From Perkinsus chesapeaki (lineage: Eukaryota > Perkinsozoa > Perkinsida > Perkinsidae): DNA of 64,000 bases. Made by a program: the position numbers and the translations under genes. Positions 1-61,880 of the stretch are shown piece after piece (position 1 is the stretch's first letter; every line of letters begins with the position of its first letter). Below the pieces are notes generated by a model that saw nothing but the letters and a program-made list of their open reading frames with translations, had not been told where the DNA came from and searched no databases. The DNA is taken from NCBI GenBank assembly GCA_013115145.1, contig JAAPAO010000042.1, positions 1-64,000 on the forward strand. Direction: 5' to 3'.

Positions 1-539
1 GAGAGGAATGTAAATGTCATTATTTTTCTCTCCCTTCTCCATTCGGTTGAATGGTTTACGGACCGTAAAAAAAGTACTCTAAATTGCTAGCTACGGCCGG
101 TTGGACGTCAAAGCGAGGAACAGTCCACTATTAGCAACCCACGACCAATAATATGGCGTAGACTTATGAGGAGTACGCGAGCCGCAGGCGCGCGAAATTC
201 TGTTGGCCGCAGCGAAAAACGTCTCGTGAATGCCACATGAAGCACCGTTGGTGAACCCTGGTGGATAATGGTAAGCCCCCGGCCCGGGGGCCCCGGGGGT
301 GGCTTCAAAATAAGCCGCGGGAAACCAACCTCCCTGCCACGCGCGTCGCCCGTTCGTACTGGCAGGAGCATGGCGCGCACAGTGTGCGCCGCACACCAAC
401 GTCTTTGTCTGCAACAGTACCCTACAGTTTTATCATTGCGTATTGTTGTACAACTGAGAACAATCCTACATAGAGCAGGCATTCGGGAATGCAATGTTTG
501 GTAGGACTGGAGCAAGTGGCCAATCTAGCCTTCTCACCG
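1..539. other. No gene recognised; GC-rich left edge
   Basis: Several overlapping open frames exist on both strands, but none has a signal peptide, a family motif or a plausible splice pattern. The stretch around 285-300 is a G/C run. A one-base-centred palindrome with 7-bp arms lies at 382-396. I see nothing else supportable. Confidence 0.4.
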
Positions 540-604
540 ACTATCACTTTCCACAGTTTTATCACACTCACCGTGAGTGTGATAAAACTGTGGAAAGTGA
601 TAGT
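540..604. repeat. Perfect 32-bp inverted repeat with a single central base
   Basis: The left arm 540-571 is the exact reverse complement of 573-604, and only base 572 is unpaired. It is the longest member of the one-base-centred palindrome class described in the findings. No ORF or known element is associated. It sits about 160 bp upstream of the cysteine-rich gene at 766, so an effect on that gene's 5' region is possible but unproven. Confidence 0.95.
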
Positions 605-765
605 GAGTGACTCACGTGACGTGGCTCACGTCCGTTTTCATACTCATCGTGCACCTGGCGCGCTGCGCCGCCTGTAGAACTCCACATGTGTGCACTGCTA
701 TTTACCCTTTCGAGTATAATTCTAAGCATCAAGTGAGCCTCATATTCCACAGATTTACATTTAAA

Positions 766-1011
766 ATGTTTATTTCTACGTTACGCTTTATCATCTACTT
801 GGAGGTATTTAATATTATTGCTCTCGGTACGAGCCCCCTCCCATTATTCGATCATGAGAGCACTCCTGCTACCCGTGTACTCAACAAGCAGTCTAACTGC
901 GACATGTGCGAATTCTGCACCAGTGGAGGTGCGATTGTCGTAGCGGCGGTTTGTCTTGCACATATGGCTAGATGTAGCACAAAAGGTAAAGTATGTGGGA
1001 AGTGCTGCTAG
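766..1011 (+). CDS. Small secreted cysteine-rich protein, family 1
   Basis: This 81-residue ORF starts with a hydrophobic signal peptide (residues 1 to about 22, MFISTLRFIIYLEVFNIIAL). A basic linker with the segment RVLNKQSNC follows, then eight cysteines at 45, 48, 51, 63, 70, 77, 80 and 81. It ends in a terminal Cys-Cys. I chose the ATG at 766 because it opens the signal peptide; an in-frame upstream start would put the hydrophobic segment internally. The same C-x2-C-x2-C ... C-x6-C ... C-x2-CC frame recurs in the minus-strand genes at 30968-31204 and 41680-41925, so this is a dispersed gene family. I recognise no known family. Even cysteine number and secretion suggest a disulfide-stabilised extracellular peptide; its role is unknown. 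It is a single exon, and the stop is TAG at 1009-1011. Confidence 0.7.
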   Translation: MFISTLRFIIYLEVFNIIALGTSPLPLFDHESTPATRVLNKQSNCDMCEFCTSGGAIVVAAVCLAHMARCSTKGKVCGKCC

Positions 1012-1360
1012 TACCCGGTATAATGCCTAGCATAGTCGGTAAGATATTACCAGCTTATCCAGCCAAGGTTGCTTTGTCCTCTTAGCATCGCCCAGTGCAC
1101 AAGACTTCACTGACAGCCAGGTCTGCCGGTTCTCCTTAGCGATGAGGAACCTCATGTACGGAATCTCTTCATTCTCATGCTCGGAGTTACAATAGATTAT
1201 TGCAAATAGTCATTGGAAATCCAACTTTTTTATCGGATTATTCTCGAGACTTCAAGGGTATTGCGTTGACAGGGTGTTTGAAAGCGGTATCGGATTTTGC
1301 GGAAACTTTCCGCAGATAGAAATTTCCGTGTTTGAAGCCATTATCGAACTTACCTGTTAC

Positions 1361-3609: not shown

Positions 3610-4641
3610 TTGCTCCATCGGCGCAATCCTTGCTCTTGTGGCTTCGGTCACCGCCCAGACTGAAGGCTCGGTGATGGTGGTTGAGGAGTTGCAAGTCACT
3701 GTGATGTTTATTACAGTTATTTTCGGCTAACGTGCTAAAATTCAGAGTCTTCAGCCAAGGTCAGGATAGATCCCGTTCAAGTGCCACGGAAGCTGTGGGG
3801 GGGCATTACCAAAAACCCATCGGTAATTGCACCTTAGTCGGCAAGATTATTTACGATTGTCTTTGTTACGATGGGGATTACCCATTCTCAGCGGTTGTAA
3901 TGTCGCCCAGGGCGACTCGCCCTTCCGAAAGCGTTGTTACAGTAGTCATATTGAGATGGTGACAAGTTGGTCGGTGTTATGTGCGTGCCGTCATGCAGCA
4001 AGGGGCCCTGCCCCCCGTACGAATCAAGGAACACGAGCTGTTTCAGAAGAACTTGCTGCCTGCCGTGTCTCCGAGTGAGTGGGAAGATTAGAACATATTC
4101 GCGGTATGGCACTTCCCGCTCTTTAATGAACACCAATGAGAGGTTCATCAGTATTTAGGATGCAGCGTTATGTATATTGTAACAGCAGTATACTGCTTAA
4201 GGTCAGTGCAAGCTACCACAGACAGTACTCCTGTAAGCTGTAATATCTTGCACTATGCCTCAGTGTTTACATTGCTATACTTGACATAATTTCTTTCACA
4301 ATCCTAAATTATTATGTATCCAATAACCTATGGCCGACGGCTATATTTGTGTGATGAGCATGTCTCGCATTATTGCCTCATTGTGGTATTATGAACCGCA
4401 GCCCGGCTGCGGCAGCCGTGTTATATAAGATTGCACTCCAGTGCTTCCACTGAATGATTGCCTCTCAGGCTCTGATTGTATGGAGTGTTTCCGTACAAGT
4501 TTCGACGATATTTGCCTCTATCCGACACACGAAAGAGTTCCTAACAGGCGCAAGCAGCTTGCGGCTCGAAACGGCCAAGCATTACGCCGACTTATTTCAA
4601 TGTTCGCCTATATAAGTCTTTGTTGTCATACCGATCATTGA
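3610..4641 (+). CDS. Secreted cysteine-rich protein, family 2, copy 1
   Basis: This gene is a diverged copy of the one at 8420-8990 and follows the same exon order. A hydrophobic leader-like segment (about 3612-3672, GAILALVASVTAQ) opens it. An exon at about 3801-3893 reads HYQKPIGNCTLVGK followed by DCLCYDGDYPF. A third exon at about 3970-4074 carries CVPSCSKGPC and further Cys pairs. The last exon, about 4442-4641, contains CLSGSDCMECF and DICLYP. The last intron is about 365 nt, against 51 nt in the other copy. The reading frame runs past the position where copy 2 stops, giving an extra basic tail. The 5' end is unclear: an imperfect palindrome (about 3552-3586) interrupts the ATG region. 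It may be a pseudogene; the function is unknown. Confidence 0.5.
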
Positions 4642-4649: not shown

Positions 4650-5160
4650 AGAAGTAGTCTCAATCATCGTGCTTTCGTTAGTTTATTAATATTATACAAG
4701 TAACATAGAAATGTTTGGGATGAGTAGAGTGAGGTACTCATGTCTCAACGTCTACTGTCATAGGAGCTCTGCAGTGCGCGATAACGCGCAATGAGTCAAG
4801 TGCTTTGCGCCGCCCAATAACAAATTACACCTCGCGTAGTTTCTGCTTTTCATTGCGTGCATTGCTGCAGTGCACGCGATGTGGGTGCATCTCTACAGCT
4901 AACCAACGACGTACTGTAAGGACCTCCCTATAGAGGGTTCCGATGAAAAATCTGCAACGAGGACACAAAGTGGAATCGAGAAGAAAAAGCTCCAAGTATC
5001 CGAGTTCGATGATCTTTTTCTTCCGATGATCGCCCGCTGAATGGTGTTACCTCATTAACTGTTAATGATTAACATTAGAACACTGCGCTCGATCATGGTT
5101 TGAACCGCCGTGGAATTTAAAACAAACAATTTAAAAATTCAAGATAATATCGGTACGATC
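4650..5160. other. Intergenic, no gene seen
   Basis: No ORF with motif, signal peptide or splice support. The part near 5163 onwards is the source of the short 3' flank copied into 3130-3165. Confidence 0.4.
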
Positions 5161-6899: not shown

Positions 6900-8415
6900 A
6901 AGCTGATGACGGTTTTAACTACAACTCGAAATTCTTGAAGTTAATTCAAGACGCCTGGGCAGACCCTTACCCACAGCTCTTTTTCCCGATGACTCGTCGA
7001 GACTCGAGAGAGTTTGGCAGAGGTCCATGGAGTAACTTGTCCAGTCCACAGTCGACGATCCACTTTCACTTCTCAATGTCATGAGTGTTCTCAGTGTTAT
7101 ATTCTGTTTGGTGCTCACTCTGAACTTCGCTGTTCTCTATAGCTATATAACACAATATCCAACGAGCCTTTTGATAATCATAGAATCATAACCAAAAATG
7201 TTAATTTCACTCGTTGATGGGTACATCTTAGTTGTTCTTAAACCCTTGGAAAACATAAGGTGATAAGAATTTGCCGCGCGGTGTAGAGATAAACGCACTG
7301 CGGTTACCACAGACTCATACCAAGTAACCAATACAACAGATACGCATCCAACATAACTTATCAACTGGTGTTATACAACATAATTACGCTCAGCCTTACA
7401 GACTAACTGTAGCTACGCAGCTCATACAAACAGGGACCTGTTACTTCTGGGGATAGTGTTACAGAGCAAATTTCTGGGTCACATTTACTGGGACGGTGAA
7501 TAAGGCACAGAAAGATACCTTGTCGTCCTGCGATCAGACACCCAGGTGTTAACATATTTAGCACTGGTCCAATGATAATACAGAGTAAAAGTATCGCAAC
7601 ATTACCTTCGCACTGGCAAGAATGGAATGCGTGCTACTGCCTGCGTACTGCAGGGGATAGAGGCTACTTGGACTGTTATGTGAACTAGTTGAGAAATAAC
7701 TATCATTATAGATATCCCCGACAAGAGCGTGATATGTGTATAGTGAAGAACTGGCAAGTCTGTAACAAGAAACCGTGTAAATGAGGAGCAACTGATCATC
7801 AGCTGTATGGCCAAATTGAGACGCGATTTCGCTGGATGCTGTATGAATCAGTTCGAAACGAGTACAGCGGTTAGGAAAATATAGGCCGTGGACTCCGAAT
7901 CATTCTGGAGGAAAACGCGCGTGCCAAATTGGCACTGTCATTGACAAACATCGTACCACTTTAACATACATGTAAAAACTGATAGAATTGGTAGGCGAGG
8001 AACTGCCCGGGTGATGCGTGGATCGATTGGTCGCTGATGAAGGGAAGAGCATGAAGCCTCCAAAAGAACTTCGTAGTCATGAGCGATCGGGAGTGTTAAG
8101 GGACCAAGCTGGGAGGAAAGCACCATCCGGCTACACAGAAAGTACGGGGCTCGCTACATACTGGAAGGGTGCTCCTCCCGGACCCTCCGGGCGGAGATTG
8201 CTGCGTACAGCTCGAGCTAGGCTATAAAGCACGCTTATGTTGTCAGATATCCTCACTGAGGATTCCTCAGTCATCGAACCACTCACGCTCCCCTTCAGTC
8301 ATAACCTATGACTCACAGGGTCTTCACTTGACAGCAAGGTGTAAGTGTCGAAGCTACTCCGCGTCTGCTTGACTGATAGTATCAATTCCCACTGCCAGCT
8401 TTCCAGCATTCCAAC
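6900..8415. other. Intergenic, no convincing gene
   Basis: Hydrophobic open frames of 60-77 codons occur on the minus strand between 7143 and 7814. They have no start context, conserved motif or splice partner. An open frame at 6915-7118 just upstream of the lyase start could hold an untranslated or alternative first exon, but I cannot support it. Confidence 0.3.
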
Positions 8416-18999: not shown

Positions 19000-19073
19000 G
19001 GATTGCAGACTATGCATTTCTCACCTGCCATACGCAAATCGTCATACAGTAATACTGTAACAGTATGACGTTT

Positions 19074-19128
19074 GGTTAATATCATATTATTAGTATGACT
19101 AATACTAATACTATGATATTAACCAATG
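19074..19128. repeat. Stem-loop with 13-14 bp perfect arms
   Basis: GGTTAATATCATA near 19074 is mirrored by TATGATATTAACC near 19116, and both arms extend by one more base pair. A smaller inverted repeat occupies the loop. It directly follows another imperfect palindrome at about 19039-19069. Confidence 0.8.
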
Positions 19129-23426: not shown

Positions 23427-23579
23427 GGTATCGTGACGCCATGTGTTGTCGATGTTGCCATATTATCCTATTGGTTTTAAATTAAGTGTTGCTGCTACAT
23501 TGACGAGTCGTGGTTTATGTTAACTCTTATTTCCCTCACAGAAAATCTGTTCGATCAGACCGAGTCGGTTTCGACTCGA

Positions 23580-47017: not shown

Positions 47018-47184
47018 GATAAATCTGATAGAAAAATAGGAAAAAACTTATCTGCCATTCGATGATGTTGAGCAAATGAGAGGAATAGAGATTACTATTT
47101 CAGAGAAAGTATGCGGGCAAACAATTCAACGCTAGAAACGTATTCCGAAGTGAAAGTGCCAAAAAATGTATTTTCCAGCAGAAA

Positions 47185-47217
47185 AAAGCCGCAGGCAGGG
47201 ATCGAACCTGCGGCCGA
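47185..47217 (-). other. tRNA T-arm-like hairpin before the divergent gene pair
   Basis: On the minus strand the sequence GCAGGTTCGATCCCTGC forms a perfect T-arm with the usual TTCGATC loop. It is flanked by GCC/GGC and followed by a T-run like a Pol III terminator. I could not find a matching acceptor strand, D-arm or anticodon arm upstream, so a complete tRNA (or one with an intron) is not shown. It lies between L2HGDH (starts 47017, minus) and the coiled-coil gene (starts 47430, plus). Confidence 0.4.
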
Positions 47218-47429
47218 TTTGGACGCAGTTTTAAAACATTTGGGAGACTTGGAAAATTTTGACATGAGTGAGCGAATGCCTCTCCCGTCTAATGCATTCA
47301 AGGTACCGGCTTTATTTTCGCAGTGTTTTCTGTAAAACGGTGCAGGAATGCCTATAAAGGAGGATCTGATGGAATATACAGATTGAATGAGACTTAGGAA
47401 TTATTAGTTTTACTATTTTTCAATCAGAA

Positions 47430-50400
47430 ATGTCTCATCCATTTGGCTGGTCAACTAATGATGATAGTACTTCGGATGGAGAGGATAATGAAGAGGTCAT
47501 AAAGAGGTGGATAGGTTGAATTATTATGATATTATTGAAATTCTCAAGATTATTAGTGATCGAGTATAGGGTACCAAATCGATATTATTTTGTTTAATAT
47601 GAGTTACGATACGATAATTATAAGGTAGTATTTACTATCAATAATATTGTTAATCCTAGCGGTTCTATGGGAGCATATAACGATCTTCTCCCTTCAGCAT
47701 TTCCAGCAATCACTTTCCCTGCAGTAGATGGAGGAAAATCTTGTGAGCTCACGAATGCCGTACGGGTCACTACGATACTGTCATCGGGGAAAACGGTTAT
47801 TTTTATGGAATCACGCGATTGGATAATTCATAAGATATCTTTGGGTACAACTTTCGAGCTTATGTTTAGATTGACTGTTGTGACGACGCTATTATTGTTG
47901 GTAGAAAGACAGTTAATGGCGCTACGAAAAAGATGGGAGATCTAGCATGGAAGGTGAGAAGAATCTTCAGGTTAAACGCGCAAGAGGTAAAATAGGTTGG
48001 CTGCGTGTTTTCAGTTGGAGATTCTTGCTCGTAAGTGTGAACCAAAGCCGTGGTATCGTATATTAGCGGATGACCCAGGTGAGACCTATCTCCTCATTTA
48101 TTAAATCAATACTGAATAAGTAAATGGTCTAATATGTGTATGCATTTCCTGGCACGTCACAAATGAATTATTAAAATATTTCGGGACGTTTCCCAAATTT
48201 TTGGACTCAATCTCGGAGGCTGTTGATGCCAGATTGTCATACTGATTAGTTTTATCGATAGTGGATACCACTCACTGATTAATGTATATAAGAGGAGAAG
48301 TGCATATTGCTATACGTATGTCGTAATAGTGTAAAGTATACGTTTGCCTTTTTACACTTGTTACGATGTTACTGCTGTATTTTTACTTTTCCTTCAGATA
48401 GGCCTAAGACGCTGTATTGGTTGGAAAAAAGAGTTGTTATATTAGAAAAGGAATTGAGAGAAGTAAAACGATTGGGGGCCGGGGAGGTTGGAAACTTTAA
48501 TATTGTTTATTCCGAGCAATCCTTATATAAAGAGGAATAAATATGAGCACGTAAAGACATTAGTGCGCAGCATGCTCAGGCGATGGTGGATGATTCTTTC
48601 AGGCATTGCTGACTCTTGAACGTACTTCACTTGAGAGTGGCGATTATCATGCGGAGTGTCTTCGTTATATAGCAAGGCTTGAAGATATGACTAACAAATA
48701 CGAAGCTGCAATGAGAAAGGTGAGGTGGGCAAAATCTCTCGCGTTCATTTCCTATCGGCCTGTTTCGGCTGTTCTATGGCTGGTGAATTGTGCCCTATCT
48801 CGCTGGTGAGTCATACATAGCAACGGAACTAGCATTGATTGGGCTCATAGTTAAGAAGGATGAGTAATGGGTGAAATGTGACAAGTTAAGGAGCCTTGGA
48901 GTACGTCGGTGAAGGCTGGTGATAGTAGACTACTCGATACCGTAAGGTCGATAAGTGCACTCCTATCTCCACATAATAGATCATCTGTAAAAGATCTCAT
49001 CTGGTATATTATCAAGATAGTAATAGTAACTTTCGCTGCCTAATTCTAGTAGCATATATGACTATTGTGCAATTTAATAATATATTTTATTACTTATATA
49101 TTTCCATGGTATTTATAATATAGAGTTCTTTATATATATTAATTATGGGTATTTTACCTATTATAAATAAATAGTGATATCTAAATGCATATAAATAAGG
49201 ATAAGGTCACGTGGCAGCTGTTCACTGGCTGAGGGATCGGTCAAGATGACGAAGGTGTGAACTATTTAGTCACTGTTCATACAGTGGGTTTTGTTGCAAG
49301 TTATGAAAGAGATTTTTGAGCAAATAATAATGTGTGAATTAAAACGGATCTCCCTATATTCGAACCAGCGACCTTTCGGTTACCTCAGGTGGCCTTCCTA
49401 GAAAATGCGTTGAAAGAATCCGAAGAACGTGGTCATCTGACTGAGGCGGAGCTGGCGTCACGGCGTCACGAAACTCGCGTTGCTGTCGAGACCCTCCAAT
49501 TGGAAGTGCAACATCTCAGGTGATTAGTTGAGGAATTTTTGTCGGAAAATTTAGGAATTTTCAGGATTCATCGGGACAAATTGGAAAAGTCACTTTACGA
49601 GTGTCGACAAATGATAAAGGAAATGAAGGAGGAAGCAGAAAGGATGATGGAGGTGGGAATTTTGTGGCGCGTGACGGTTTGTTAGGGCTGAATGGGACGT
49701 GGTGTTGATGTGGTACCGAGGCACAGAATTTTATGACTGTTCTTGAAATCTTCCCGGAATTTCGGAAATTTTGTAGATCTCTAGCGGCTCGTTTCTGAAA
49801 CTATCTGATGAGTTTCCAGGAGCTTCGAGCGCCCCTTGAGTTCTGCTTTTCACAATCTGGCCGAATTGTGAAGGATGTGTCGGTATGGCTAGGTGATGGA
49901 AAATGATAGACTTGAAGGTGAAGCGCGAGAAGATCAATTAAAGCGTCATCTGAAGGCTACCACGGAGAGGCTGGCTCAGGTGAATGGGGAACTAGGACGC
50001 AGTTGGTGGGGCTTGAAGATGAGACATCTATCTTGAGGAGAATACATTAGGAATTCGGAGGTCTGGAGAAGGACGAAACGGTTGATCGATTTTGACTGTC
50101 ATACGACAGTTATTATCATTTCACTCATGGCCATCTGTGTTATATTACTTGGTCGCCATCCATGAGTGTACATAGGATCGGCAAGCTAGTAGTGAAGAAT
50201 TATGGATTGTCGGGAAGACGGTTGTGGTACAGCTGTTGGATACAAGTGGATAAAATATAGTGATTACTTAATTGTTGCTATATGTGGTAAATTGATCGAT
50301 TTATCGCTGGCTGGCGGCCGCTGTTTGCAAAGATTCCGAGCTTTGCCGTGTGTGTACGACTTGATAATGCTACTAGTTGTGCGTGCATTAGGCATATTAA

Positions 50401-53400
50401 AGGGAGAAGATGATATCTGATGGTGGAGACCCGTATCTAAAGACGGCGCTTGCTGAACTTGGCATAGTTAAACGTGCCTCGTGATTTCAATTTTTACAGT
50501 TTTCGCGTGAAACTTCTGATGTATAGGATTTTACGTGATGACAATGCTTTAGTGGCATTAATAAAACCGTTTCTCGGAAAAACGGACGAGCGAGATTTTT
50601 GTACCATATATGGCAACACTAGGGATATGTATATCTATTCATAATATTACTAGTATATCTAATATAATAAAGGATATCCGTACTAATTATATATTTAATA
50701 ATCAATAGACTATAAATAATATAAATCTATATTATAAATATAATTAAGGATATAGTAATTATGGTACAGGAATTAGAATTAATAATCTCATAGAGACGAA
50801 GCTGCCGAGCATTCAAGAATTGTCGTATCAGGTTCGGGTTGAGAATAGGAAGTTGTTGGAATATATCAAGACCACTACAGAACAGTAAAGCTGCTTGAGC
50901 GAGGAAGCTGAGAGAATCGGGGAAGTGTCGTCTTTTAGGTATATTAAAGATGGAAAGGAATGGAAGAAGATGCTGGGAAAGTTAAATCTGCAAGCGAAAG
51001 ATTTCAAGTGCGTTGAGGAAATGCAAGTGAGGATAAGATTGCAAGTTTTTGCTATGGTAGTTCTGGTCGAGCAAAGACGGCGGAGTTAGTTAGGGAGTTG
51101 GAGATTGGCATTGAGAGACGGATGGAGGAATGGGTAAGAATGGCTAGAGGTGTCAGAATAATTATTATTACAGCGTGTGTATTGGGGACATCTTCAAATG
51201 ATCAAAACAACGTGTATGTATTTTTCCTGTCGGGAATTCCCCCATTTTTCCACCTCGTGGAGGTCGGTAAATTTGGCAGCACTAGGGGAATCGACTGGGA
51301 CATCCTACGTGATCGGAGAAATGTTAATTACACAGCGTAAAATCAAGTACTTACCTTTGATTACCGCGTATCTTAGGAGTAACTGCGATTGGCTTTAGTT
51401 CCGTATTTAACCGTCTTACCTTTTTTGAGATGGCTACGATTACCATACGATATTGCTTCTCATTAGACTTGATTCAAGTCTAATAATTAATGCAATTTAA
51501 AAATCTATTTATTCAAGCAAATATCAAGTCACTTGATATCGGCAGTGTTATGGGCAATCAAAGATTTTCTAATAATGTTACAGCACCCGCCATCTAAAGA
51601 CCGTTGAACATTACACGAGCCTCATGCGTTCCATCTTCACAGTTTTCAATTGGCGTTTTAAATACATGGTTTTGCGTATGGTGAACGCATTAGCGGGGTG
51701 CATGGAACCGTTTCTGGAATAAACGGGCGAGCGAAAATTTTTTACTGCGAGGAAAATTTCATGAAAATTTCGCGAAATTTTTGACCTTGTATTTAGAGGG
51801 GAACTGAAGAAAGATTCCAAAGAGAGATCGAAGCGTCATATAGTGCACGTGATGAGATGATTGCCGAGGCAGCTGGGTGCAGAGTTAAGATGGAGGAAGT
51901 TGAGAAGGAAAGGAGAGATACTGGTGAGAAGTTGACCGACGATGGGCAAAGTGTTCGAGGAATTCTGGTATGAAAATCTAGCATCTCTGAGCGGTCTTTT
52001 TGAAGCATTTGTTAGCGGAGCTCGATTACATATCGTGAAAGGAAAATACTGTGTTAAATTGCTTCACTTCAAGCCTAGCAGACACTCTATTATTCGATGA
52101 GAAGATGGAGTTCTTACCAGAACTTATTATCAAATTTCTGAATGCCGAAAATCTCCTCTTAAAATTCAAGTATATGCGGTTTTCGGTAGTAGAATTGACG
52201 TAGCTTCACTGCCGTACCAGTTGCGTTGGGAGTAGAGATAAACGGGCAGGAGCAACTCCGAATTATTTTGCGGATTTTTTCCGCGTTGCCGAAATTTCTC
52301 ATTTCGCTGACAGAAATGGAGTCATATTCTCATAGAAATGGATTTGGCATCTATCAAGCTCGAGTTCGGTCGGCGAGAGCGGGAACTACTCGATGAACTT
52401 TCGACAGTCACCACTCAACTTGCTGACACTAAAGAGGAGCTGGCCCAAGCGTAATCTTGAAATCTTGCCAAATCTTGCATTTCCTCAACGTTCAGTTTGG
52501 ATACACTCAATTGTGTTGATGATAATGTTGAAGATGATTGTAACTATAATCTCGAATTTGGTGTGCCTGTGATTGGTCCACGGAAGTTGCGAGGAGAAGT
52601 TCTGTGTGTCGGATGCAGGTGAGGAAAAATGTGAAAGAAGTGGAATTTGGAGGAGTATCTTTTGAATTTTCAACTCCTATTAGGATTTCTGGTCCGGCCA
52701 TTTTTTATTTCATCACCTTTGTTTCTACAGTGCTCCAAATTAATCTGGCATAGCTGGCACGGGCGAATAACTCGCTTGCCTATGTTGTCAATAGCTGCCA
52801 TGAAACGGTCGAGAAATTCTGTGACAGAGGATGTAATATAGCTAAGCATGACATTATCCGATTTCATGGTTAAACTCGCTCTAGTCATTTCAAGGTTATA
52901 CTCCGAATTAATTTGGAGCGATATATTCCCCTTGCATCCATCCCGTCTTATTGATGAGCTCAACGGCTTGCATCGCAATTCATATTTTTGGGACCAAGTT
53001 GTTTTGAAATTCTGCAATCGCTCAAGACGTCCTTAGGTAGTATTGGCCTATCGCCGGGCGATAATCGCCCTGAGCCTGTGAAGCTCGCTTGCTGGTCACA
53101 AATGAGCCACTATCCCGTGTCGTCATTGCTCCGGTGTTGCCGTACTCGTTCAATCCTTACCCCCGACTGCGGCCCGTTGAGGTTCACTCCAATCGATGCC
53201 GAACGAAGAGTAAAAATGCAGCTCCCTAGAATCGAACCGGCGTGGTCTTATCTTGAGCCTCGGATTGCACTCGGCAAAGACAACTGATGCTTCAGGGGTG
53301 AAAAATTTCGCAAACTTTTCATGAAATTTTACTCGCAGTGGGAAAAAGTAGTAGAAGTTTCGAAATAACATTTCTTCTTGACAGGCTTTCTACGTGTTCC

Positions 53401-56040
53401 AATTTTCAGGAACCGTGTTGTGTTTGCTGGTTATGGTCCAAAGACGGGCGCGTTAAAAGTATCGTCTGCATTACCGCCACCGAAGCTCGATGAAGTTGTG
53501 GATGATTTTATGGCCGATTATACCGATGCAAAGAGAAGGGTTAAATTGAGGAGGAATATCGAAAGGGTTGGTTGTTATCGATCAATCGGGCGCGCGCTTT
53601 TTACACCAAATCCGAATAGGCACACCGGGAAGCGGAGGGGAAGATAGGATCTCGAGGTGGCTCTGATGGGGAAAGAACGAGACCGTCTACGAGGTGAGAG
53701 GGAAGGATTCGATAAGGCTTGGGTGATTGTATTTGTGTTAGGGAGACAGGTACCCCACAGAATTGCAGACGATTACAGAAGAGAGCGGTATGGGAATTAA
53801 TGCATGCTGGAAGACCTTCGTCGAATTCTTCACGGTGTGAATTGCCCGTCTTATGGCGGAAATAATTTGCCTTATGTATCGAGTTGAGTAATTTCAATTG
53901 AAGATTTCCGTAGCGCGTGACTTTTGATGCCGCCTACGCCTTCGGGAGGGGAAGTTGGCAGCGGCGGGGGGCAACAGAAGGGTCAGCGATCGGGTCAGGT
54001 CTCTGGCGATCAGGTGCGAATGGGACACGACACAAAAAATCTGCACGCATACACAGGTACTTTCTTTCGACGTCATTGTATCGAAATCAGTGACGGAAGC
54101 CGCGGAGTTCCTACGAACGGCCCAGATGGGAATAGACCGTCAGAAGGTTAGCGGAGCGAATCGATTCATGTTTACCGTTTTTGTTTTCTAGGAATATTTG
54201 GCGCAGCGCGAGGCTGAGCTTAAAAGGGGTGAGACTAGATTGTTGAGAGGACAGAGAAGATTGAAAATGCAAAAGAAAAAACTACGGCGAATAATAAGAG
54301 GAATTGTAAGTGGATAGGAAAATCTACATAGTGCGAAAGATACGCGGATTTGTTCAAGTGCCGGATTTCGTACGGCATTTCGAGAAAATGAGAAAGACCT
54401 CTGAATGCGCGTGAGTGTTATTTTCTCACTCGTCACGAAATTGCATACAGTACGCGACATCTAGAGATGCGTGGTCTTTCAGCAATCGATTGGCATATCT
54501 CTCGATTCAAGTGGCTCTGAAAGGAGCGATTCATCAACAAGCAGCTCAGAGTCCACCGACGAGTTTGCTCGTAAACAGCAGAAGAAGCGCCCAGCTGGTC
54601 GGTCACGAACACCTGTGATGAACCGACGACCAACTAAGAAACGGAAAACGACAAACGAAACGACGGGAACAACAACTGACTCTAGGAAAACTGATAGCTC
54701 AGTTACAGCACCGGTGAGATGAATATATTGGTAATTCCGTGGCGCAGTGACGGTTTTAGGGACCATGCGAAGGTGAGGGGTCTCCGGGTGTGGTGGATCC
54801 GGCAGTGCAACAGGAAGAAAAAGAAGCGAAAGCGGCTGGCTCGTTCAACAGTGAAAATGGGAAGGTTTTTTGGAATAGGAGAAGTCGAGCCTGGATTGCA
54901 AGGTGAGGCAGTTAAGTGCACGCATGCACAAGAAGAGCATTACCAAGTCTACTCAGAAGGGTCTGATTCAATGTTGTCGAGGGTTTGTTGCCTCCTTCCG
55001 GTCCAGGAAAATATCTTCCTAGATCGGTTTGTGTTTTATAGTGGTATTTTTTGGTCCGGATATGTGAGGCTGAAAGAGTCCCATGGCCAGCGAGTCGTAG
55101 GGCAACACCAATGCTCCGAGAGGGAAGGCTTCCAATTCTTTATGGGAAAACAAATTCATGCAGAAAAATTAAGTACATCTTCGCATTGGGAACCTCTCGA
55201 CGCTTGAAGAGCTGTTGATCAGTTGGAAGGATGAGGAAAGTGGCGGTTGGAGGACGAAGTCGTTTAATCCCCGAACAAAGTATGACGGAAATGTCCAGTC
55301 GGCTCGAGACGATGCGATAGGTAGGTCCTTCTGAGATGGCGAGTTGCTGATTTAAGCGAGTAGTGTTCCTTACCGCGCGACCGAAAGTGAAATCGCCGGC
55401 GTCGAGCGATCCGACAAAGAAGGAGGCATCCTCTGGTGGAGAGGACGACGAAGAACACGAGGGGGAAATTCAAACCGAGGTATAATTATGTGGCGCAGTG
55501 ACTATTGGCATGGTATCTTGCTCAGATGCTTAATGGCGAAGATGCCGAGGAAGGAGGTAAGATTACACTTGGTGGCATTTTTAGAATAATCGCTAGTGGT
55601 GGAATGAAGATTGCATCCGGGGAGGCGTTTTCTGGGTTCACAGATGAAGAATGGGCACATTAAACAAATACATAGGAAAGGCCCATTTAAACGGGACTTG
55701 AAGGGAAACTAACATTTCAAAGTATTTCCGATTTTACGATAGGAAATCAGAACTCGGTTGGCATTAAGCATGTACTCCAATACTGAAAAAAATTATTGTT
55801 GAGGGCCCACTCGAGCGTGCTTTGCAAGTTCTCGAAAATTTCTAATATTTCGTTCTGCATGCCGTTGCAGCGATCGGCTGCATGCTCGCAGAAATGGCCG
55901 AGAATTCCCCTTGAATGTTCGAGACGTGGATTTTTACACCTTGTTGAGCTTCATGGCAGGTTCTCGTAAACATGATAATGAAGCGGAAGTGATTGATGCG
56001 ACATGGGTTGATCCCAGCAAACCATTGGTGAGCTTTTAAT
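47430..56040 (+). CDS. Very long multi-exon coiled-coil protein
   Basis: An ATG at 47430 opens MSHPFGWSTNDDSTSDGEDN. Downstream, many short plus-strand exons with good AG/GT borders encode heptad-like, charged helices. Examples are LYWLEKRVVILEKELREVK (about 48415), LERTSLESGDYHAECLRYIA (48604-48719), FLENALKESEERGHLTEAEL (49390-49520), KLEKSLYECRQMIKEMKEEA (49566-49650) and SIQELSYQVRVENRKLLEYI (about 50800-50885). Two more lie at about 51800-51970 and 52337-52455. The 3' part changes character: a compact exon VVFAGYGPKTGALKVSS (about 53411-53550), a Ser/Lys/Thr-rich low-complexity exon (54482-54714) and acidic exons (55385-55490). The last one ends in WVDPSKPLVSF then TAA near 56038. Architecture suggests a cytoskeletal or centrosomal scaffold. 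I recognise no family, and the exon chain is incomplete. Confidence 0.5.
49355..49431 (-). other. tRNA-like relic ending at a splice acceptor
   Basis: On the minus strand the segment containing AAAGGTCGCTGGTTCGAA resembles the 3' half of a tRNA, and weak acceptor-like pairing is possible over 77 nt. The T-stem does not pair, so it is not a working tRNA. It overlaps the 3' end of an intron of the coiled-coil gene, and its terminal CAG is the acceptor. Confidence 0.3.
51462..51539. repeat. Two long one-base-centred palindromes in an AT-rich intron
   Basis: 51462-51484 (11-bp arms) and 51521-51539 (9-bp arms), each with a single central base, lie in intronic DNA of the coiled-coil gene. Confidence 0.92.
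53205..53275 (-). other. tRNA-like relic in an intron
   Basis: On the minus strand a box-A-like TTTGCCGAGTGC is followed at normal distance by a box-B-like CCGGTTCGATTC. The T-stem pairs poorly and the acceptor stem pairs only in part. It shares the word TAGGGAG after box B with the relic at 49355-49431. It is probably a decayed tRNA or tRNA-derived element. Confidence 0.35.
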
Positions 56041-56049
56041 GGCAATTCA

Positions 56050-56815
56050 TAATGGAGAGATGTCGAACCCGTAGAATCTTTATTGCGTTTTCTGCGTGAT
56101 CGGCGTTATCTCGACTTCTGTGGGTGATCGTGTAACACTTAACAATTCTTAACAAGGTCTTAACCGTCAATTCGAATACCTCTCTGAGAGATCGTCCGAA
56201 CGGTATTATATAAAATTATTGTCTTTGGAAATCTTTTGTAGCAACTCCAATTAACGGCTCAAGACTGCCGCATCACTTCTGCCGCATTCAGGCGGAATTG
56301 GGCCTCGCTCGGGCCTTGGGGGGTTTGCTCACGCGATGTATGCCCTTTGTTCGAAAGCTGGCAAATGTGTTATGACCGCGCGCCGCGAAATGCCTGCTTC
56401 AAAAATTATTGACAAATGTACAGATAGTAATTATCATAGGCGTAATAATGTACGCATTTATATTCCTATCCTGCAAATACTCCATGGTGTTAGGCAGCCA
56501 CGAACGATGGACGAGTTGAAGTTGTCGAGTGCAGCCTCGTGTCGTCCTCATCTTCATCTGATGAATCACCGAATCGTCGCCGAGCCTGATTACTGTTTAT
56601 AACATTGATAGTGTATCATTATTCTTGTCAAGTGCAGAGTTGGTCAATGAGCTACCGAATTGAAAGAGTTCACCGCGCGCAACGCCTTTATCCGTGAAGA
56701 ATGATCATTATCCTCACCAAGACATATTCAGACTGCACTTGTTGTATTTTCCAAATCATGTACGTTGGTGAGCAACCTGACACGCTTGATTCATCTTGTT
56801 ATATTTCGGATCATT
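56050..56815. other. Intergenic, no gene seen
   Basis: Only an unsupported plus-strand frame at 56336-56602. Confidence 0.3.
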
Positions 56816-56819
56816 CTTT

Positions 56820-57020
56820 ATGCCGATATTTTTCCTCGCATTATTCTCAACACTTGTTGGTTCGATTTGGTCCGCCGACATCTTGGTCGATGAATACGCA
56901 AGATACGCGGTGAGCTTCCCACGGACAATCATTCCCCAGGAAGGGGTATTTCGTAACCTTCGTGACCTTGAGAAATACGAACGCAACTTGTCGATTTGCA
57001 AAGGAGTCCAAAGGAAGTGA
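56820..57020 (+). CDS. Short putative secreted protein
   Basis: From ATG 56820 a clear signal peptide (MPIFFLALFSTLVGSIWSAD) leads into a 46-residue tail with RTIIPQEGVFRNLRDLEKYE and a single Cys near the end, then TGA. It may be a complete small secreted protein or the first exon of a longer one, as neighbouring genes are multi-exon. No family recognised. The start was chosen because it exactly opens the hydrophobic leader; an upstream in-frame Met would bury it. Confidence 0.4.
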   Translation: MPIFFLALFSTLVGSIWSADILVDEYARYAVSFPRTIIPQEGVFRNLRDLEKYERNLSICKGVQRK

Positions 57021-57200
57021 ACTTACAAGTGCAATCCTTGCGATTTGCCATCTCAATCCAACCCGTTTTATTCGTTCCCCAGGAGGCTTAATGGGGCCAA
57101 TTAAGGTTATGGCTAAATAACGCTTACTTGAATAACCTCAGATCATTCTTGAAACATAACCACGAGCTTTATCAAAATTAGAGCGGCGGCTTGCACCACA

Positions 57201-59344
57201 ATGAGTAACAACTACTCCTTTACGCAAAGCTTCGACAAATTATCTGCCGAATGCGAACTTTTATTAGAGTAGTTTTCCCATCTGTTCCGTCGAGTTGGTT
57301 GAACAGCTACCCGGTGGCGGTATAATAGATAGGGTAAAAGACGTGAACTTGTTAGTATCCAAACCAATTCAGAGGTATGAGAGTTGACTTAAGGCGAGCT
57401 AAATAGCTCTGCAGAGGATCGCCTTTGGCCATCTGAAATTCAACGATTGAATTGGTTCGTATTGGCCTGTGATTACCGTTCTTGCTACAGCAGCGGAGAG
57501 CTGCCACGCATTCCGACTCCCAGTACTCTTACTGAGCACGAATCGTAGGCAAGGTAGGGATCGACTTAGGTAGGGCTTTAGGAGCAACCAGATATCGATG
57601 CAATATCGGACTCCTGACGAAATAGATCCGTATGTCTCATCGAACTGTATGAAATATAGTCGCTCTCGGATTGGGGTTCTGATCAGGAGCCGGACTCCTT
57701 CATCAACATTACACCCTCCCATCGTGCTTGGTGGTACAATGATCTTGATAGTCTCATCACCTCTCGATCTGGCTCACATACGATTATCGTTATGTGGCTG
57801 ACAGAAGCCGAGGAGCTGGAAGCTGCCAAGTTGGGCATAACCAAGATGATAGTCTCAACGAGTTTCGTAGGTATATTACCGACCGGCATAAGGTGCAGAT
57901 CTTTGCACTGCTACCTCCGTTGGCTCGGCCGGAACAGACTTATCTTATTAGCTCTCCCTTGGGCTCTATGAAAAGGTTGTTTATCGCAGAGTATCCTACA
58001 GCGGAAGGTCCGAAAGCGACCTCGTTTGGAATCTTTAGCAGGCTGCTGTTCAGCCGACCTTCTCCGTTTTTTACGTCGAATTCGCTCGGCATGTGGCGCC
58101 CAGATTCTTCCCAGTGTACTTGAAGAATTCTCTCAGTTCATCACCGACGCATGTAAGCGGCCAGTGCCGCCGTCACGCGCCACAAAATGTTATCAGGTTA
58201 CGAGACTATCATAGAGAAACCCAAAGGAATCTCCCGAGCCAGAAATCGAAGTATCCCTTCACTCGTGCCCGTCGCGTGAAGGTCACTACAGATGTGGAAG
58301 CACCGCCCGCACCGTATGGCATGCCTCTCGCCGCGCTGTTGGCACTGCCGTCGGGGATATGGCCAACATCTGCGGCTATGGGGCTTGCTCAGGTTCGGCA
58401 AGGATTGCTGGGCGGAATGAGCGGGTTGGTCAGGTTTATGCTGTTTTATTTGATAGTCCTTTGGGAAGGGAATGCAGTAAAAGTGAAGATGTGTGGCGAT
58501 GTACGAGGGACGTAACAGAAGCTACTTAATATTTTAAAATTATCGAATTGAATTATAATTGCATTGTAAATCTTCAGGTTTGGCCCCGATAGTCGATCAA
58601 GCTGGAATAGAAATCCTAGATGATATTGCACTCATAGGGCATCAGTGTGAGATGCACGCTGCGACCTCAGATACCAACAGTTGTTAGGTACGCTCTCGGA
58701 GGACTGGTGTAGCTTTCAGGGCTACACTTTGCCCGGCGCAATCCAAGAATTCGAGCCCGAGTAGGTTCATTTTGGGTGTGCCGAAATGACGCGTCTGTTA
58801 GGTCGACATCCTCCCGATCGTCGAGGCAAGCTGATAAGATCGTCTGTGCTGTGGAGGAGTCGCTGGGCCTCGGTAGGCCATGTGATTCGCTTTCAACGAG
58901 ATCACGTGAGTAGGTCCTCAGACAGCTCGACGAAGGCTCCGGCAGGAATTTGGCGTCGATGAGGAATTGGATGGTCTCATGGAACTGCTCAAGGACGGCG
59001 CGTCATTAGACAATGACGGTTACGGTATTGTGTAGTTGAAGAACCCACTTAGTTAACATTATCGCAGATGAACCCTCCGGTGCCATTGACTGGGGTTCCG
59101 AGTTCGGGATTAATGTCGAGCCTCGTGGTGACGATGATATTTATGATGATTTAGCGATCGATGATGGCAACGAACATGAAGAAAGTCCGTTGAGGAGTTT
59201 GTGGATAGTATTATGCGCTCATTGATTGGGTGTGTGTCAGGTAGAGAAGAGAGCACGCCAAAGTTCGGCGCCAAAGAGCTGGAGCAGTTTAAATCAGACT
59301 TTGAGAGCGCCACTCAGAAGTTCTTGAAAAGTCCGTTTAACTAG
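57201..59344 (+). CDS. Multi-exon protein of unknown function
   Basis: An in-phase start is readable: exons 57201-57268 (MSNNYSFTQSFDKLSAECEL), 57333-57374 and 57407-57544 (RLWPSEIQRLNWFVLACDYR), with introns of 64 and 32 nt. The middle (57600-58500) has overlapping open frames and I cannot choose the path. One reads NEFRRYITDRHKVQIFALLP, another SVLEEFSQFITDACKRP. The 3' exons are clear again: PIVDQAGIEILDDIALIGHQ (about 58578-58645), a segment with EFGVDEELDGLMELLKDGAS (about 58917-59023) and GAIDWGSEFGINVE with acidic residues (about 59070-59180). The end is FGAKELEQFKSDFESATQKF followed by TAG at 59342-59344. The IDWG word also occurs in CDK5RAP3-type proteins, but the rest does not match them. 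Unassigned. Confidence 0.45.
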
Positions 59345-59446
59345 TTCCGCTGTGGGAATAACTAGGCAGTCGTCTGATAAATCAACATTATCGGGGTATG
59401 GTATTATTAAATACTGAAAACCAACAAGCATTGAGATTGAAATATT

Positions 59447-59519
59447 TTCCGATACCGGGACTCGAACCCGGGTCGCCTGGGTGAAAGCCAGGTATCCTAA
59501 CCAGCTAGACTATATCGGA
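59447..59519 (-). tRNA. tRNA-Glu (anticodon TTC)
   Basis: A 73-nt cloverleaf on the minus strand. The acceptor TCCGATA pairs perfectly with TATCGGA, and the discriminator is A. Box A reads TAGTCTAGCTGG. The anticodon arm is CCTGG-CTTTCAC-CCAGG, and the T-arm GGTTCGAGTCC has a perfect stem. There is no intron, and CCA is not encoded, as in eukaryotes. It lies between two plus-strand protein genes and is transcribed against them. Confidence 0.95.
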
Positions 59520-59559
59520 AGATGCTGAAAAATTCGACAGGTCAGGGTGCCTCACTACC

Positions 59560-61880
59560 CATGCTTCAGGACGAAGCGATACCCGGCTTGTCGCTCTTGT
59601 ATCGCCGGATACCAGTGCAGCTACGTCGGCAATTGCCGATAAGCTCTCTGAATCAGCAAATAAGGTAGACACTTCTTCACTCCAATTAATGTAAGGAGGT
59701 GTATTTCCCAGAGCACTATTCAGGCCACCATCCTACTGTCATCAGCTGAGCCCACTGAAGTCCCCCGAGGCAACGATAACATCTCAATTCTGCGTGTTAA
59801 ACAAACTGCAAATTGGTTGGGTGAGACTCACTACTGGATGACTTGGTTTGGTCCTACTTCAGACTTGCTCACTATGCCTTGGAAAAAGGCAAGGTTCAAC
59901 AGCATCTTCGTCGGTTTCAAAGATGTGTTCAGTATTTGGTCGAATGCGGTGATTCAATTGCCCTCTAGTCTTTCTCCCTCTGACACCTGTAATTGTCCGA
60001 TTCGTGAAAGTGAGTGAGTAAACCAGTCAGGCGTGGAAGCCTCAAAAGTCCTCGGAAGGATATCAGTCTCCATCTCGAAGTCCACAGACGAGCTAGTCAT
60101 TGAAGCACCTACATCGCCAGCACTGGTGATGCGATACTAACAGAACCTGCTGGAGTCACCCTATCAGATCAGCCTGCTAGAGCGCACTTTCCGTTCAAGT
60201 CATCTGCCTTGTATCCGCAACGTTTGGCTCAATGCAACACGAACGCTCACTGTTCAAGGAAGGTCATCGGAAGCGTGCGATCAAAGGTGCCTAATTCTCT
60301 CTACGTTCATCTATGAATTCTTGTCTGTTAGGGGAGACCTTACAACACTCATCCGTTTCACACAAAAGCCGGCCGACCGTATGGAAGGGTTTCTACCGAT
60401 CAGGTTTCTCCCTCACTTAGTAGGTTCCACCATTTCCTATCGTCCACACTAGTTGTCCTGAATCAGGACGTTTTTTCCTCTGAACGCATTGTTAACGCTT
60501 TGAAGGCCTTGGCGGGGAGCATCGGGGAATCCGAGGTTCTCGATAATGGGTCAATATCATCGGCCCATGCAGTACGTCATGCGCGTGCGTGCAGATACAT
60601 TGTGTGGGTGACAGAATCAGAATCCAAGTCTTTCATAGAAGAAATCGGTATGAGACTCGAGGACAAGGATTACGATTTCTCCAAACCAGCTCGGAAGAAG
60701 TAGACACTCTCCTTACCACCACATGTGAAGCCTCTCGTATAGGGCGACTAGTTGGTGGGCAAAAGGCTCTTCCCAAGATGACGGGAAGGCGGCTTCGGTT
60801 GCAACACGTCAACACGGCTTGGGTCTGATTGTTATTATCGGCAAGGGTGTGTGAGCTCTCATTGTGTCTCGAACAGTATGCAGTTGCTGTCAAAGCGAGA
60901 GGAATAGTCGGTCACACGATAGCAGAATACCGAGTGAATCAAATAACGAAAACGAACGAAGCTGCTGCGGTGCTACGGCACTTCCAAGCTCTGACGGCCG
61001 GCGTAACTGACAATGGCAGATTCTCCTTTGTCGAGTGGGGCTCAGGAGAAGGTGAGCTGGCTGCTACTTCTGTAACGGTTAGATGACGTTGTGGTCAGGG
61101 CACTTGTCGATGGCCATGTCACAAGCCTTTCCCGAGGCGACGATCATCTCTGTGGAATCTGATAAACGATCTTCGGTAACTTGAATCAAAGGAGGTGCTT
61201 CTTAATGAGTTACCAGGAGAGACATAGGGCAGCTGGAGCCTCCTTCGTCAAGTCGACGGGCCTGACCAACAATATAGTGTGTAACGGCGACACCACCGAG
61301 GACACAGCTCAGGACCTAGCTGACTGGTCACTAAAACGCCACGTTCTCTTTCCATCTTCGCCCGTTCAGCCCTGAACTGTTCCGATTCCAATGGATTGGC
61401 CAGAAGGTTAGTAGTCCTCGATTAGCGGGGGCATTTGCGAGCAGTGCCTTGACGACGCTCATACCGTTGAGAGCAGGGTCAGCGGTGAGGCCTTCTGTCC
61501 AGTGCAGAACACTCTCTACCAATCCTCAGACATCGTTCCTTCTGACTCTCGTCACTGGGCGTAACATAGGACCGGCTGAGCTCGTGACATCTCGGTTCAT
61601 CGATCGCTACACTACTAGGTTCATAGGTAGCAGAGGTATAGGAGCTACTTGTCATCGCTTACCAGAACCGCACATAACTTCCGATACTGTTCTAAACTGC
61701 AGTTGGTTTGGTGGTGGCCCGCAGTTGGGTATCATTCAATGCGACCTGATAAGATCGTCCCGACAAGTAGGATGCTATTGGAAGTGACAATAGATGCCAA
61801 AACCTGTCAAGGTGCATCACCATTTTAAGTGGTATAAAGATGGCCACAAGCGAACATACACGATGAAGATAATACCGGTG
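59560..61880 (+). CDS. Multi-exon SAM-dependent methyltransferase-like protein
   Basis: The diagnostic part spans two exons. 60877-61051 ends in GRFSFVEWGSG. After a 47-nt intron, the exon from 61099 gives HLSMAMSQAFPEATIISVES. Together they form motif I (E-x-GSGEG-x-LS) and the acidic end of strand 2, as in class I methyltransferases. Upstream exons include TRLVALVSPDTSAATSAIAD (about 59570-59664), STIQATILLSSAEPTEVPRG (from 59713), SGVEASKVLGRISVSIS (from about 60027) and ERIVNALKALAGSIGESEVL (from about 60483). Downstream, GLTNNIVCNGDTTEDTAQDL (about 61260) and KPVKVHHHFKWYKDGHKRTY (about 61800) look coding. Several junctions are unresolved, and these could be two genes. The substrate is unknown. 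Confidence 0.45.

Follow-up and report, generated by a model that had tools for sequence, protein, structure and literature searches.

Excision of the hAT transposons Ac/Ds in plants, S. cerevisiae and Candida albicans leaves footprints with P-nucleotide palindromes, in which the central base is the complement of the one that adjoined the element, and proceeds through hairpin opening to a joint that often uses microhomology (PMC5873905). In Candida, 128 revertants comprised 28 kinds of footprint, in which no insertion exceeded 3 nt; the arms of yeast footprints reach up to 20 nt and measure less than 3 nt in about half (PMC5873905). The related element Hermes has nTnnnnAn as its target (PMC10368747; PMC2803484), and a likeness between the hairpins of hAT elements and those of RAG has been described (PMC2803484). 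In the reports consulted, hairpin repair is treated as assay data only (PMC5873905, PMC3499496). The existence of hAT footprints with P nucleotides is already known, from assays (PMC5873905).

The window analysed here is a 64-kb stretch of the Perkinsus chesapeaki genome. Perkinsus is a clam parasite. Within the window, 130 perfect inverted-repeat centres have arms of at least 7 bp separated by a single central base, compared to 4.4 ± 1.8 in 30 dinucleotide shuffles of the same DNA. At the same arm length, spacers of 0 and 2-10 bases yield 4-12 centres each against 2.6-3.5 in shuffles. Spacers 4 and 5 (12 and 11 centres) reach about three times the shuffled value and the remaining non-1 spacers are nearer to chance, including spacer 0 with 6 centres versus 3.4. 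For spacer 1, arms of exactly 7 bp (92 versus 3.1 shuffled) outnumber arms of exactly 6 bp (45 versus 12.0), making 7 bp the mode from arm length 6 upward. Thus, the shuffling control that the original prediction had called for reveals a genuine spacer-1 excess, and the rarity of other spacers and the preferred arm length are as it described. All 15 of its quoted examples were recovered by our scan, but its number of about 70 palindromes was too low. The thinning that it noted between 43 and 63 kb is real, because just 6 centres are present there, whereas the proposed avoidance of exons holds to the extent that an open-frame proxy can stand for exons.

Structurally, a single 22-bp design, p X q' X' p' X q, accounts for many of the palindromes; X is 6 nt and a prime denotes the complement. 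This design comprises two palindromes whose centres are exactly 7 bp apart. There are 35 pairs in the window with both arms of at least 7 bp and this spacing, which use 70 of the 130 centres, and therefore the palindromes are not independent singles. They had been taken as such in the original prediction, which overlooked the second tip and the second copy of the target. When the window and 20 other stretches are considered together (arms of at least 6 bp), a centre spacing of 7 occurs in 76 cases and any other spacing between 1 and 30 in no more than 5. Likewise, 306,116 bases from 41 loci of the same genome contain 92 perfect 22-mers at centre distance 7, and 0, 0, 0, 1 and 1 perfect copies at distances 5, 6, 8, 9 and 10. 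The arrangement X n X' m X is found 114 times with n=m=1 and 0-2 times at each of 24 other loop-length combinations. Complementarity between centre 2 and p is seen in 101 of these 114 cases, and between centre 1 and q likewise in 101, so each tip displays the hAT-footprint trait in which the palindromic addition has at its centre the complement of the element-adjoining flank base.

A scan for two tips, from which low-complexity X and window positions 18250-19080 were left out, gave 103 cases at tip distance 7, whereas the remaining distances between 1 and 99 have 0-11 each (mean ~5). The corresponding class with identical rather than complementary tips is inflated by tandem repeats, with up to 219 at one distance, and is useless as a control. 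In the same scan, short plant-type footprints (pXq'p'Xq, tips 1-6 bp apart) total 32 in six classes over a background of ~5 per class, and classical short hAT footprints thus show no clear enrichment. The same is true of plain tandem 8-bp duplications. Deletion footprints and precise excisions would be invisible to the scans used. Copies of the 22-bp design (Table 1) differ in their degree of decay. If up to 3 mismatches are permitted, 285 of 357 centres fall in doubles, although this count is inflated, and a lone 7-bp palindrome meets the rule by chance at roughly 14% (a rough estimate rather than a computed value). Matches with 1-3 mismatches partly overlap by 7 bp (window 31490/31497; locus L016, 6898/6905/6912) and are to be read as matches, not events.

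Table 1. Candidate excision scars and paralogous empty sites in the window. TSD, target duplication; for empty sites, the sequence of the site.
Feature	Position	TSD or empty site	Remarks
perfect 22-bp scar	276-297	CCCCCGGG	
perfect 22-bp scar	375-396	GCGCACAC	
long-hairpin scar	540-616		left arm 32 (centre 572), right tip 609 arm 6; second target copy ACTCACG 610-616
perfect 22-bp scar	1860-1881	TACCTGGT	
perfect 22-bp scar	3902-3923	GTCGCCCT	
perfect 22-bp scar	4397-4418	CGCAGCCG	
perfect 22-bp scar	5053-5074	CATTAACA	
perfect 22-bp scar	8249-8270	ATCCTCAG	
perfect 22-bp scar	14111-14132	CCTGGCAC	
perfect 22-bp scar	19045-19066	TACAGTAT	
perfect 22-bp scar	19354-19375	GGGGTATT	
perfect 22-bp scar	19407-19428	GCCCAGAC	
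perfect 22-bp scar	19484-19505	CGGGTGTA	
perfect 22-bp scar	19746-19767	GCATTAAG	
perfect 22-bp scar	19913-19934	ATTATTGG	
perfect 22-bp scar	21582-21603	CTTTCTGT	
perfect 22-bp scar	23573-23594	GACTCGAG	
perfect 22-bp scar	26344-26365	GTCTGACC	
perfect 22-bp scar	27171-27192	ACGCCATC	
22-bp scar, one mismatch	27361-27382	GTTGTCAC	empty paralogue 31742-31749
long-hairpin scar	27452-27493		left arm 12; second target copy TCTTAAG 27487-27493; paralogue has 29-bp gap
perfect 22-bp scar	29152-29173	GTTGAATG	
perfect 22-bp scar	29392-29413	TTCCTGCC	
empty site	31742-31749	GTTGTCAC	paralogue of scar 27361
perfect 22-bp scar	32429-32450	CATACAGA	
two-hairpin scar	33290-33350	CTTCTACA	left arm 14 (centre 33304), right arm 13 (centre 33337); filler between hairpins
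perfect 22-bp scar	34277-34298	AGCCATAC	
perfect 22-bp scar	34552-34573	CAATCTAT	
perfect 22-bp scar	35002-35023	GTGTAGTA	
perfect 22-bp scar	36029-36050	ATCACGAT	
perfect 22-bp scar	36473-36494	CGATTTAC	
perfect 22-bp scar	37018-37039	CTATCAGG	
perfect 22-bp scar	37508-37529	TGCGTGAA	empty paralogues 40319-40326, 40734-40741
empty site	37614-37621	AGTGGGCG	paralogue of scar 40855
perfect 22-bp scar	37822-37843	ATGCTAGT	empty paralogue 41082-41089
perfect 22-bp scar	37964-37985	ATGAGTCC	empty paralogue 41183-41190
perfect 22-bp scar	38371-38392	GTTCAGTG	
perfect 22-bp scar	40152-40173	CTCTCAGG	
empty site	40319-40326	TGCGTGAA	paralogue of scar 37508
empty site	40734-40741	TGCGCGAA	paralogue of scar 37508
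perfect 22-bp scar	40855-40876	AGTGGGTG	empty paralogue 37614-37621
empty site	41082-41089	ATGCTAGT	paralogue of scar 37822
empty site	41183-41190	ATGGTTCC	paralogue of scar 37964
perfect 22-bp scar	41481-41502	GCTGCAAG	25-bp gap at paralogue near 38451
perfect 22-bp scar	53049-53070	TATCGCCC	

The palindromes are very probably repair scars (footprints) left by excised hAT-type DNA transposons. This origin, which had been proposed as hAT hairpin excision in the original prediction, is favoured by several features of the sequence, namely the 22-bp two-tip design, the complementarity of the tips, the 14-bp difference at six empty and filled sites, the lean towards nTnnnnAn targets, the two-hairpin forms and fragments of hAT genes. 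Presumably, a copy of the 8-bp target duplication p X q stood on either side of an element, and the transposase would nick one base outside each element end. Attack by the 3' end of the flank on the opposite strand at the element border would then create a flank hairpin with a single tip base. If each hairpin were opened far from its tip, the resulting 3' overhang would carry the complement of q (left) or p (right) as its tip letter. The two overhangs would have the 8 nt q'X'p' in common, and annealing there followed by gap filling would generate L-p X q' X' p' X q-R, or the empty site plus 14 bp. Longer overhangs joined elsewhere might instead give two separate long palindromes. The former element at each site, the polarity of the 3' overhangs, the annealing step and the enzymes are the components of this model that we infer.

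Paralogous sequences provide examples of sites with and without scars. Their alignments contain 25 gaps, and all 7 gaps of exactly 14 bp sit on scars, representing 6 distinct sites. The six empty sites hold a single copy of the 8 bp formed by X plus one base on each side, as for the 8-bp target duplications of hAT elements, and this agrees with the earlier equation of 8 bp with a 7-bp arm plus one base. The target in the scar is identical to the empty site in three cases, including scar 37508, for which one of the two empty copies agrees, and carries 1-2 differences in the other three. Two cases depart from 14 bp: a scar with one mismatch (L022:9944), whose 70% alignment has a gap of 12 bp, and a scar with three mismatches (window 40803), with a gap of 26 bp. 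Many paralogue matches are seen for window positions 33200-37170 and for locus L028.

The empty sites also bear on the second candidate of the original prediction, fold-back or template-switch synthesis. By this transposon-free route, a polymerase working at a break would turn back twice onto the strand that it has just made and copy first X and then X' again. Such a double turn could write the same 22 letters, and turns of one base are conceivable. However, it predicts an empty site ending in the base of centre 1. We reject fold-back copying because all six empty sites carry the complement of that base as q. The fixed 6-nt X with one-base tips (114 versus 0-2) and the nTnnnnAn lean are also unexplained by this process, which we consider very unlikely. 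The probability that these are chance or binding-site palindromes is negligible given their excess over shuffled DNA, the fixed 7-bp tip spacing and the existence of empty paralogues.

In some cases, sites keep two long hairpin arms. For the 72 palindromes outside doubles, an exact second target copy is located downstream in 11 and upstream in 10, some of which are two halves of one site, and reversed-word controls gave 0 in both directions. Among non-double palindromes with arms of at least 10 bp, 8 of 19 are without an exact second target copy within 45 bp. In these long forms, as much as 32 bp of the local flank is copied, which is not expected if the 22-bp (net 14-bp) unit were itself a tiny inserting element. 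Although such an element would account for the addition of exactly 14 bp to the empty site, the copies have no common sequence beyond a partial target motif, and the letters of each scar come from its own 8-bp target. This explanation is extremely improbable.

Of the 92 inferred targets, 42 have T at position 2 and 45 have A at position 7 (p = 3.4e-9), whereas scar flanks have no comparable letter preference. The match to the hAT preference nTnnnnAn is partial, with both letters occurring together in 19 of 92 targets. Elements of the Merlin, P, Sola1 and KDZ superfamilies also produce 8-bp target duplications, and one of these might make flank hairpins in this lineage. We know of no flank hairpins for any of the four. 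Consistent with such a source, Merlin-related genes are reported from Perkinsus marinus (PMC8101967), and only a few, fragmentary hAT genes were found here. However, flank hairpins together with nTnnnnAn targets are described as hAT traits (PMC5873905, PMC2803484, PMC10368747), and involvement of another superfamily therefore seems unlikely.

A search for hAT-type transposases, also suggested in the original prediction, returned gene fragments. The hAT dimerisation domain (PF05699) has 4 matches in the genome, all above the cut-off, and PF14291 (DUF4371) has 2, with one locus common to both. PF14372 has no genome match, and the control for that search was uninformative. Comparison of a hAT piece with solved structures gave matches at E >= 1.5 only. 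Across ~309 kb, exact 8-bp repeats with an inverted terminal repeat (TIR) of at least 6 bp number 4, versus 3-7 in shifted controls, and there are none with a TIR of at least 10 bp. One of the 4 (L016:5154-8766; TSD TATGCTAC, 10 of 12 TIR bases matching) encloses a hAT domain. This candidate is single-copy and decayed, and contains nine scar matches with up to 2 mismatches (three perfect, some overlapping). It is a relic at best, because a genome search with its sequence returns itself only and because scars lie inside it. No element still inserted at a scar, and no occupied paralogue, was seen among the paralogue alignments.

Other candidates were also considered. A dispersed repeat of ~145 bp was rejected as a MITE and appears LTR-like because it has TG...CA ends and 5-bp duplications. 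A Pfam ToxA_N match at window positions 54698-55204 (E = 0.2) is under the cut-off and was discarded. Host repair genes are represented by a Ku-like piece with in-frame stops, a DRMBL (SNM1/Pso2/Artemis-type) match and a DNA_pol_A match, which are compatible with the excision model but are no proof of it.

It is conceivable, although doubtful, that the lineage has experienced several thousand hAT-type excisions while retaining almost no resident copies. The scars would then be a ledger of a purge or of host-run (domesticated) excision rather than of an ordinary mobile family, with closure mainly by a dedicated repair route in which both hairpins are fully opened and the 8-nt target complement is annealed. 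If true, such dedicated repair would constitute a new stereotyped end to transposition. Because the empty site, the two hairpin tips and the joint can all be read from a scar, a single genome supplies a large natural archive of the opening and rejoining of transposon hairpins. Three questions become testable, namely the number of times a hAT family has moved within a lineage, the existence of one fixed annealing route for resolving hairpins, and the fate of the elements. Scanning for pairs of spacer-1 palindromes at a centre distance of 7 bp is computationally simple, and might uncover former hAT activity in any genome, including those from which the elements have disappeared.

A genome-wide class of 22-bp scars was not found in the literature we searched, and comparison is possible with several known systems. 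At V(D)J coding joints, off-centre opening of flank hairpins made by RAG leads to palindromic additions. Because no one-base offset is involved in the sealing of RAG hairpins, spacer-0 palindromes would be expected, unlike the near-chance number of spacer-0 centres observed here. The scars share with Hermes the 8-bp nTnnnnAn target (PMC2803484, PMC10368747), and with TcBuster the small insertions complementary to the flank, which have been ascribed to hairpin repair (PMC3499496), although the scars yielded neither a Hermes nor a TcBuster element. The Ac/Ds footprints are alike in their complement-centred palindromes and hairpin opening, but as described they are variable assay products at a donor site (PMC5873905). 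In contrast, the scars of P. chesapeaki, with no enrichment of short forms, represent one exact 22-bp product present in graded states of decay at many unrelated natural sites.

Perfect inverted repeats with a single central base and arms of 7 bp or longer numbered 130 in the window compared with 4.4 in dinucleotide-shuffled sequence, which bears out the excess over chance claimed in the original prediction, and all 15 of the examples quoted there were recovered. At the same arm threshold, spacers of 0 and 2-10 yielded 4-12 palindromes each in the window, versus 2.6-3.5 in shuffles. The proposed mode at 7-bp arms was also upheld, with 92 arms of exactly 7 bp against 45 of exactly 6 bp.

Inspection of the flanks revealed that many palindromes come in pairs. 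In the window and 20 other stretches (arms of at least 6 bp), the distance between the centres of spacer-1 palindromes was 7 bp in 76 cases, and no other distance up to 30 accounted for more than five. A palindrome pair with a common arm creates the 22-bp design p X q' X' p' X q, where X is 6 nt, primes denote complements, pXq is the presumptive 8-bp target duplication, and q' and p' are the first and second centres, or tips. Across 306,116 bases in 41 loci, some of which were picked for hAT, spliced-leader or repeat matches, all 14 pairings were found in 92 22-mers, whereas control centre distances of 5, 6, 8, 9 and 10 gave 0, 0, 0, 1 and 1. Matches with one, two and three mismatches numbered 64 (controls 2-4), 72 (9-21) and 122 (59-84), some of them overlapping by 7 bp, and there was no excess at four mismatches (297 versus 271-351). 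This graded decay suggests that these putative excision scars are inherited and differ in age.

Scans with fewer requirements gave the same spacing. When exact 6-mers were sought as X n X' m X with loop lengths of 0-4 and nothing else required, n=m=1 occurred in 114 cases and each of the 24 other combinations in 0-2. Among the 114, the second centre is complementary to the letter preceding the first X in 101, as is the first centre to the letter following the last X, likewise in 101, and both pairings occur together in 92. A two-tip scan that did not require a palindrome, just a pair of target copies with complementary tips, produced 103 matches when the tips were 7 bp apart and 0-11 (mean about 5) for each of the other separations between 1 and 99.

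Transposases of the hAT type make a nick one base beyond either end of the element, after which the 3' end of the flank attacks the opposite strand, closing the flank as a hairpin with a one-base tip. For a target pXq, the left hairpin, if opened with a 3' overhang, would read p X q' X' p', and the right hairpin would read q' X' p' X q on the same strand. Because the 8 nt of q'X'p' would be common to both overhangs, their annealing would yield exactly the observed 22 bp. Tips equal to q and p, as expected from opening with 5' overhangs, are found in only 3/114 and 6/114 cases. Both the annealing step and the overhang polarity are what we infer from the sequence.

Some scar matches overlap in 7-bp steps (locus L016 at 6898, 6905 and 6912; window 31490/31497 and 36203/36210), perhaps representing repeated events at one target or fold-back chains. 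Fold-back synthesis, in which a polymerase turns on its own product and no transposon is involved, was the other candidate originally named. Paralogous copies lacking the scar distinguish the two. When 42 loci were self-aligned with gaps allowed, 25 gaps were 6 bases or longer and had flanks at least 70% identical, including seven of exactly 14 bp that all fall on scars, at six distinct sites (Table). At all six, the empty site ends in the base complementary to the first centre of the scar, which agrees with the prediction for hAT excision and is contrary to that for fold-back synthesis. The other 18 gaps differ in length from 14 bp, and a single one of them coincides with a scar having at most two mismatches (L022:9944, a 12-bp gap, alignment at 70%). 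In the window, a 26-bp gap occurs at 40803 (three mismatches), and in paralogue alignments the scar at 41481 and the long-hairpin form at 27464 adjoin gaps of 25 and 29 bp, respectively.

Table. Sites with empty paralogous copies, two-hairpin sites, and genes in the window.
Feature	Location	Strand	Details
Scar, 14-bp gap	window 27361		empty copy GTTGTCAC in window
Scar, 14-bp gap	window 37508		empty copies TGCGTGAA and TGCGCGAA in window
Scar, 14-bp gap	window 37822		empty copy ATGCTAGT in window
Scar, 14-bp gap	window 37964		empty copy ATGGTTCC in window
Scar, 14-bp gap	window 40855		empty copy AGTGGGCG in window
Scar, 14-bp gap	L006:5284		empty copy GTCGGCGT in L028
Two-hairpin site	window 33304 + 33337		arms 14 and 13
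Two-hairpin site	L022:9863 + 9884		arms 12 and 8
Two-hairpin site	L031:2341 + 2364		arms 15 and 9
Two-hairpin site	window 572 + 609		arms 32 and 6
Aspartyl protease gene (PF00026)	window 20217-21362	minus	paralogue
Aspartyl protease gene (PF00026)	window 38688-40118	minus	paralogue
Cytochrome P450 fragment (PF00067)	window 24038-24655		
tRNA gene	window 59447-59519	minus	

Longer hairpins also occur. For 72 palindromes outside doubles (defined with up to three mismatches), an exact second target copy is present downstream in 11 and upstream in 10, some of these being two halves of one site, and reversed-word controls gave 0 in either direction. The two-hairpin sites (Table) show both hairpins of a single event, opened at unequal distances. 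Both arms reach at least 4 in 10 of the 265 two-tip matches at distances 8-60. Non-double palindromes with arms of at least 10 have an exact partner in 11/19 cases; none was found for window 30020, 33598, 46089 and 51473, L015:4543, L019:9532, L030:1357 and L049:1320. By eye, an interrupted inverted repeat at window 19068-19130 (TTGGTTAATATCAT ... ATGATATTAACCAA) adjoins a perfect scar and is perhaps a decayed long-hairpin scar.

Sixteen blindly chosen contig starts (150,673 bases) carry 16 perfect, 10 one-mismatch, 8 two-mismatch and 33 three-mismatch scars, against 0, 0-2, 4-7 and 12-30 in controls. This density of about 0.2 per kb extrapolates to roughly 6,000 scars assembly-wide. The window is richer (35 perfect, 24 one-mismatch, 28 two-mismatch), and scars with at most two mismatches are present in 30/41 loci. 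Their spread is uneven, since window 44001-64000 holds 1 of the window's 87 such matches (86 lie in 1-44000) and five contig starts (L007, L008, L010, L012 and L013) have none. GC skew is 0.24 at 48-52 kb of the window. The claimed absence from exons stands in part: with at most one mismatch, open frames of at least 200 codons contain 1 scar in 51.7 kb versus 155 in 254 kb outside, but the contrast shrinks for 120-codon frames (24 in 104 kb versus 132 in 202 kb). The shortage fits selection against 14-bp frameshifts, with frames serving only as a proxy for exons.

The search for hAT-type transposases found dimerisation domains at four places in the genome and DUF4371 at two, with one locus common to both and all frames partial or broken. 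Used as query, the hAT piece from contig C379 gave a 100% match, over 73% of its length, to FOL47_007452 from Perkinsus chesapeaki. Resident elements with terminal inverted repeats (TIRs) and an 8-bp duplication were not above controls. A candidate at L016:5154-8766 combines an exact 8-bp repeat (TATGCTAC) with 10/12 matching TIR bases and an internal hAT domain. It is at best an old hAT relic, because it has scars inside and is single-copy in the assembly (35.4 Mb, 884 contigs), from which repeat-rich short contigs may be missing. Matches to Ku (C21:18552, with in-frame stops), DRMBL (C27:37644, an SNM1/Pso2/Artemis-type nuclease) and DNA_pol_A (C521:14654) are candidate factors that would open hairpins and join ends. 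Spliced-leader-like sequences were also found.

An element roughly 145 bp long (TGTTATTC...CAACA) is dispersed, occurring at window 37173-37260 and near position 1500 of L040, L041, L044, L045, L047 and L049, with 5-bp duplications GATAC (L040), CACAG (L044), GCAGC (L045) and TTGTT (L049); L047 has a pair of copies separated by about 25 bp. The element resembles a solo LTR or a TRIM-like LTR element of very small size. A minisatellite of 28-bp period spans window 18362-19055, including a 100-N gap at 18575-18674. The nearest named relatives of the aspartyl proteases are from P. chesapeaki and P. olseni.

Among the matches listed in a literature search, none described hAT hairpin scars as a genome-wide class or palindromes of this kind in Perkinsus, which hints weakly at novelty. 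In the 92 reconstructed targets, position 2 is T in 42 and position 7 is A in 45 (background 27%, p = 3.4e-9), with no comparable preference at flanking positions. The respective counts are 14/35 and 13/35 in the window alone and 28/57 and 32/57 at other loci. The scars L006:1720 and L026:1279 have the same target letter for letter, within unrelated flanks. The preference is partial, because T2 and A7 occur together in only 19/92. The Hermes target is given as nTnnnnAn (PMC2803484, PMC10368747), and hAT footprint palindromes are described as having the flank base's complement at their centre (PMC5873905).
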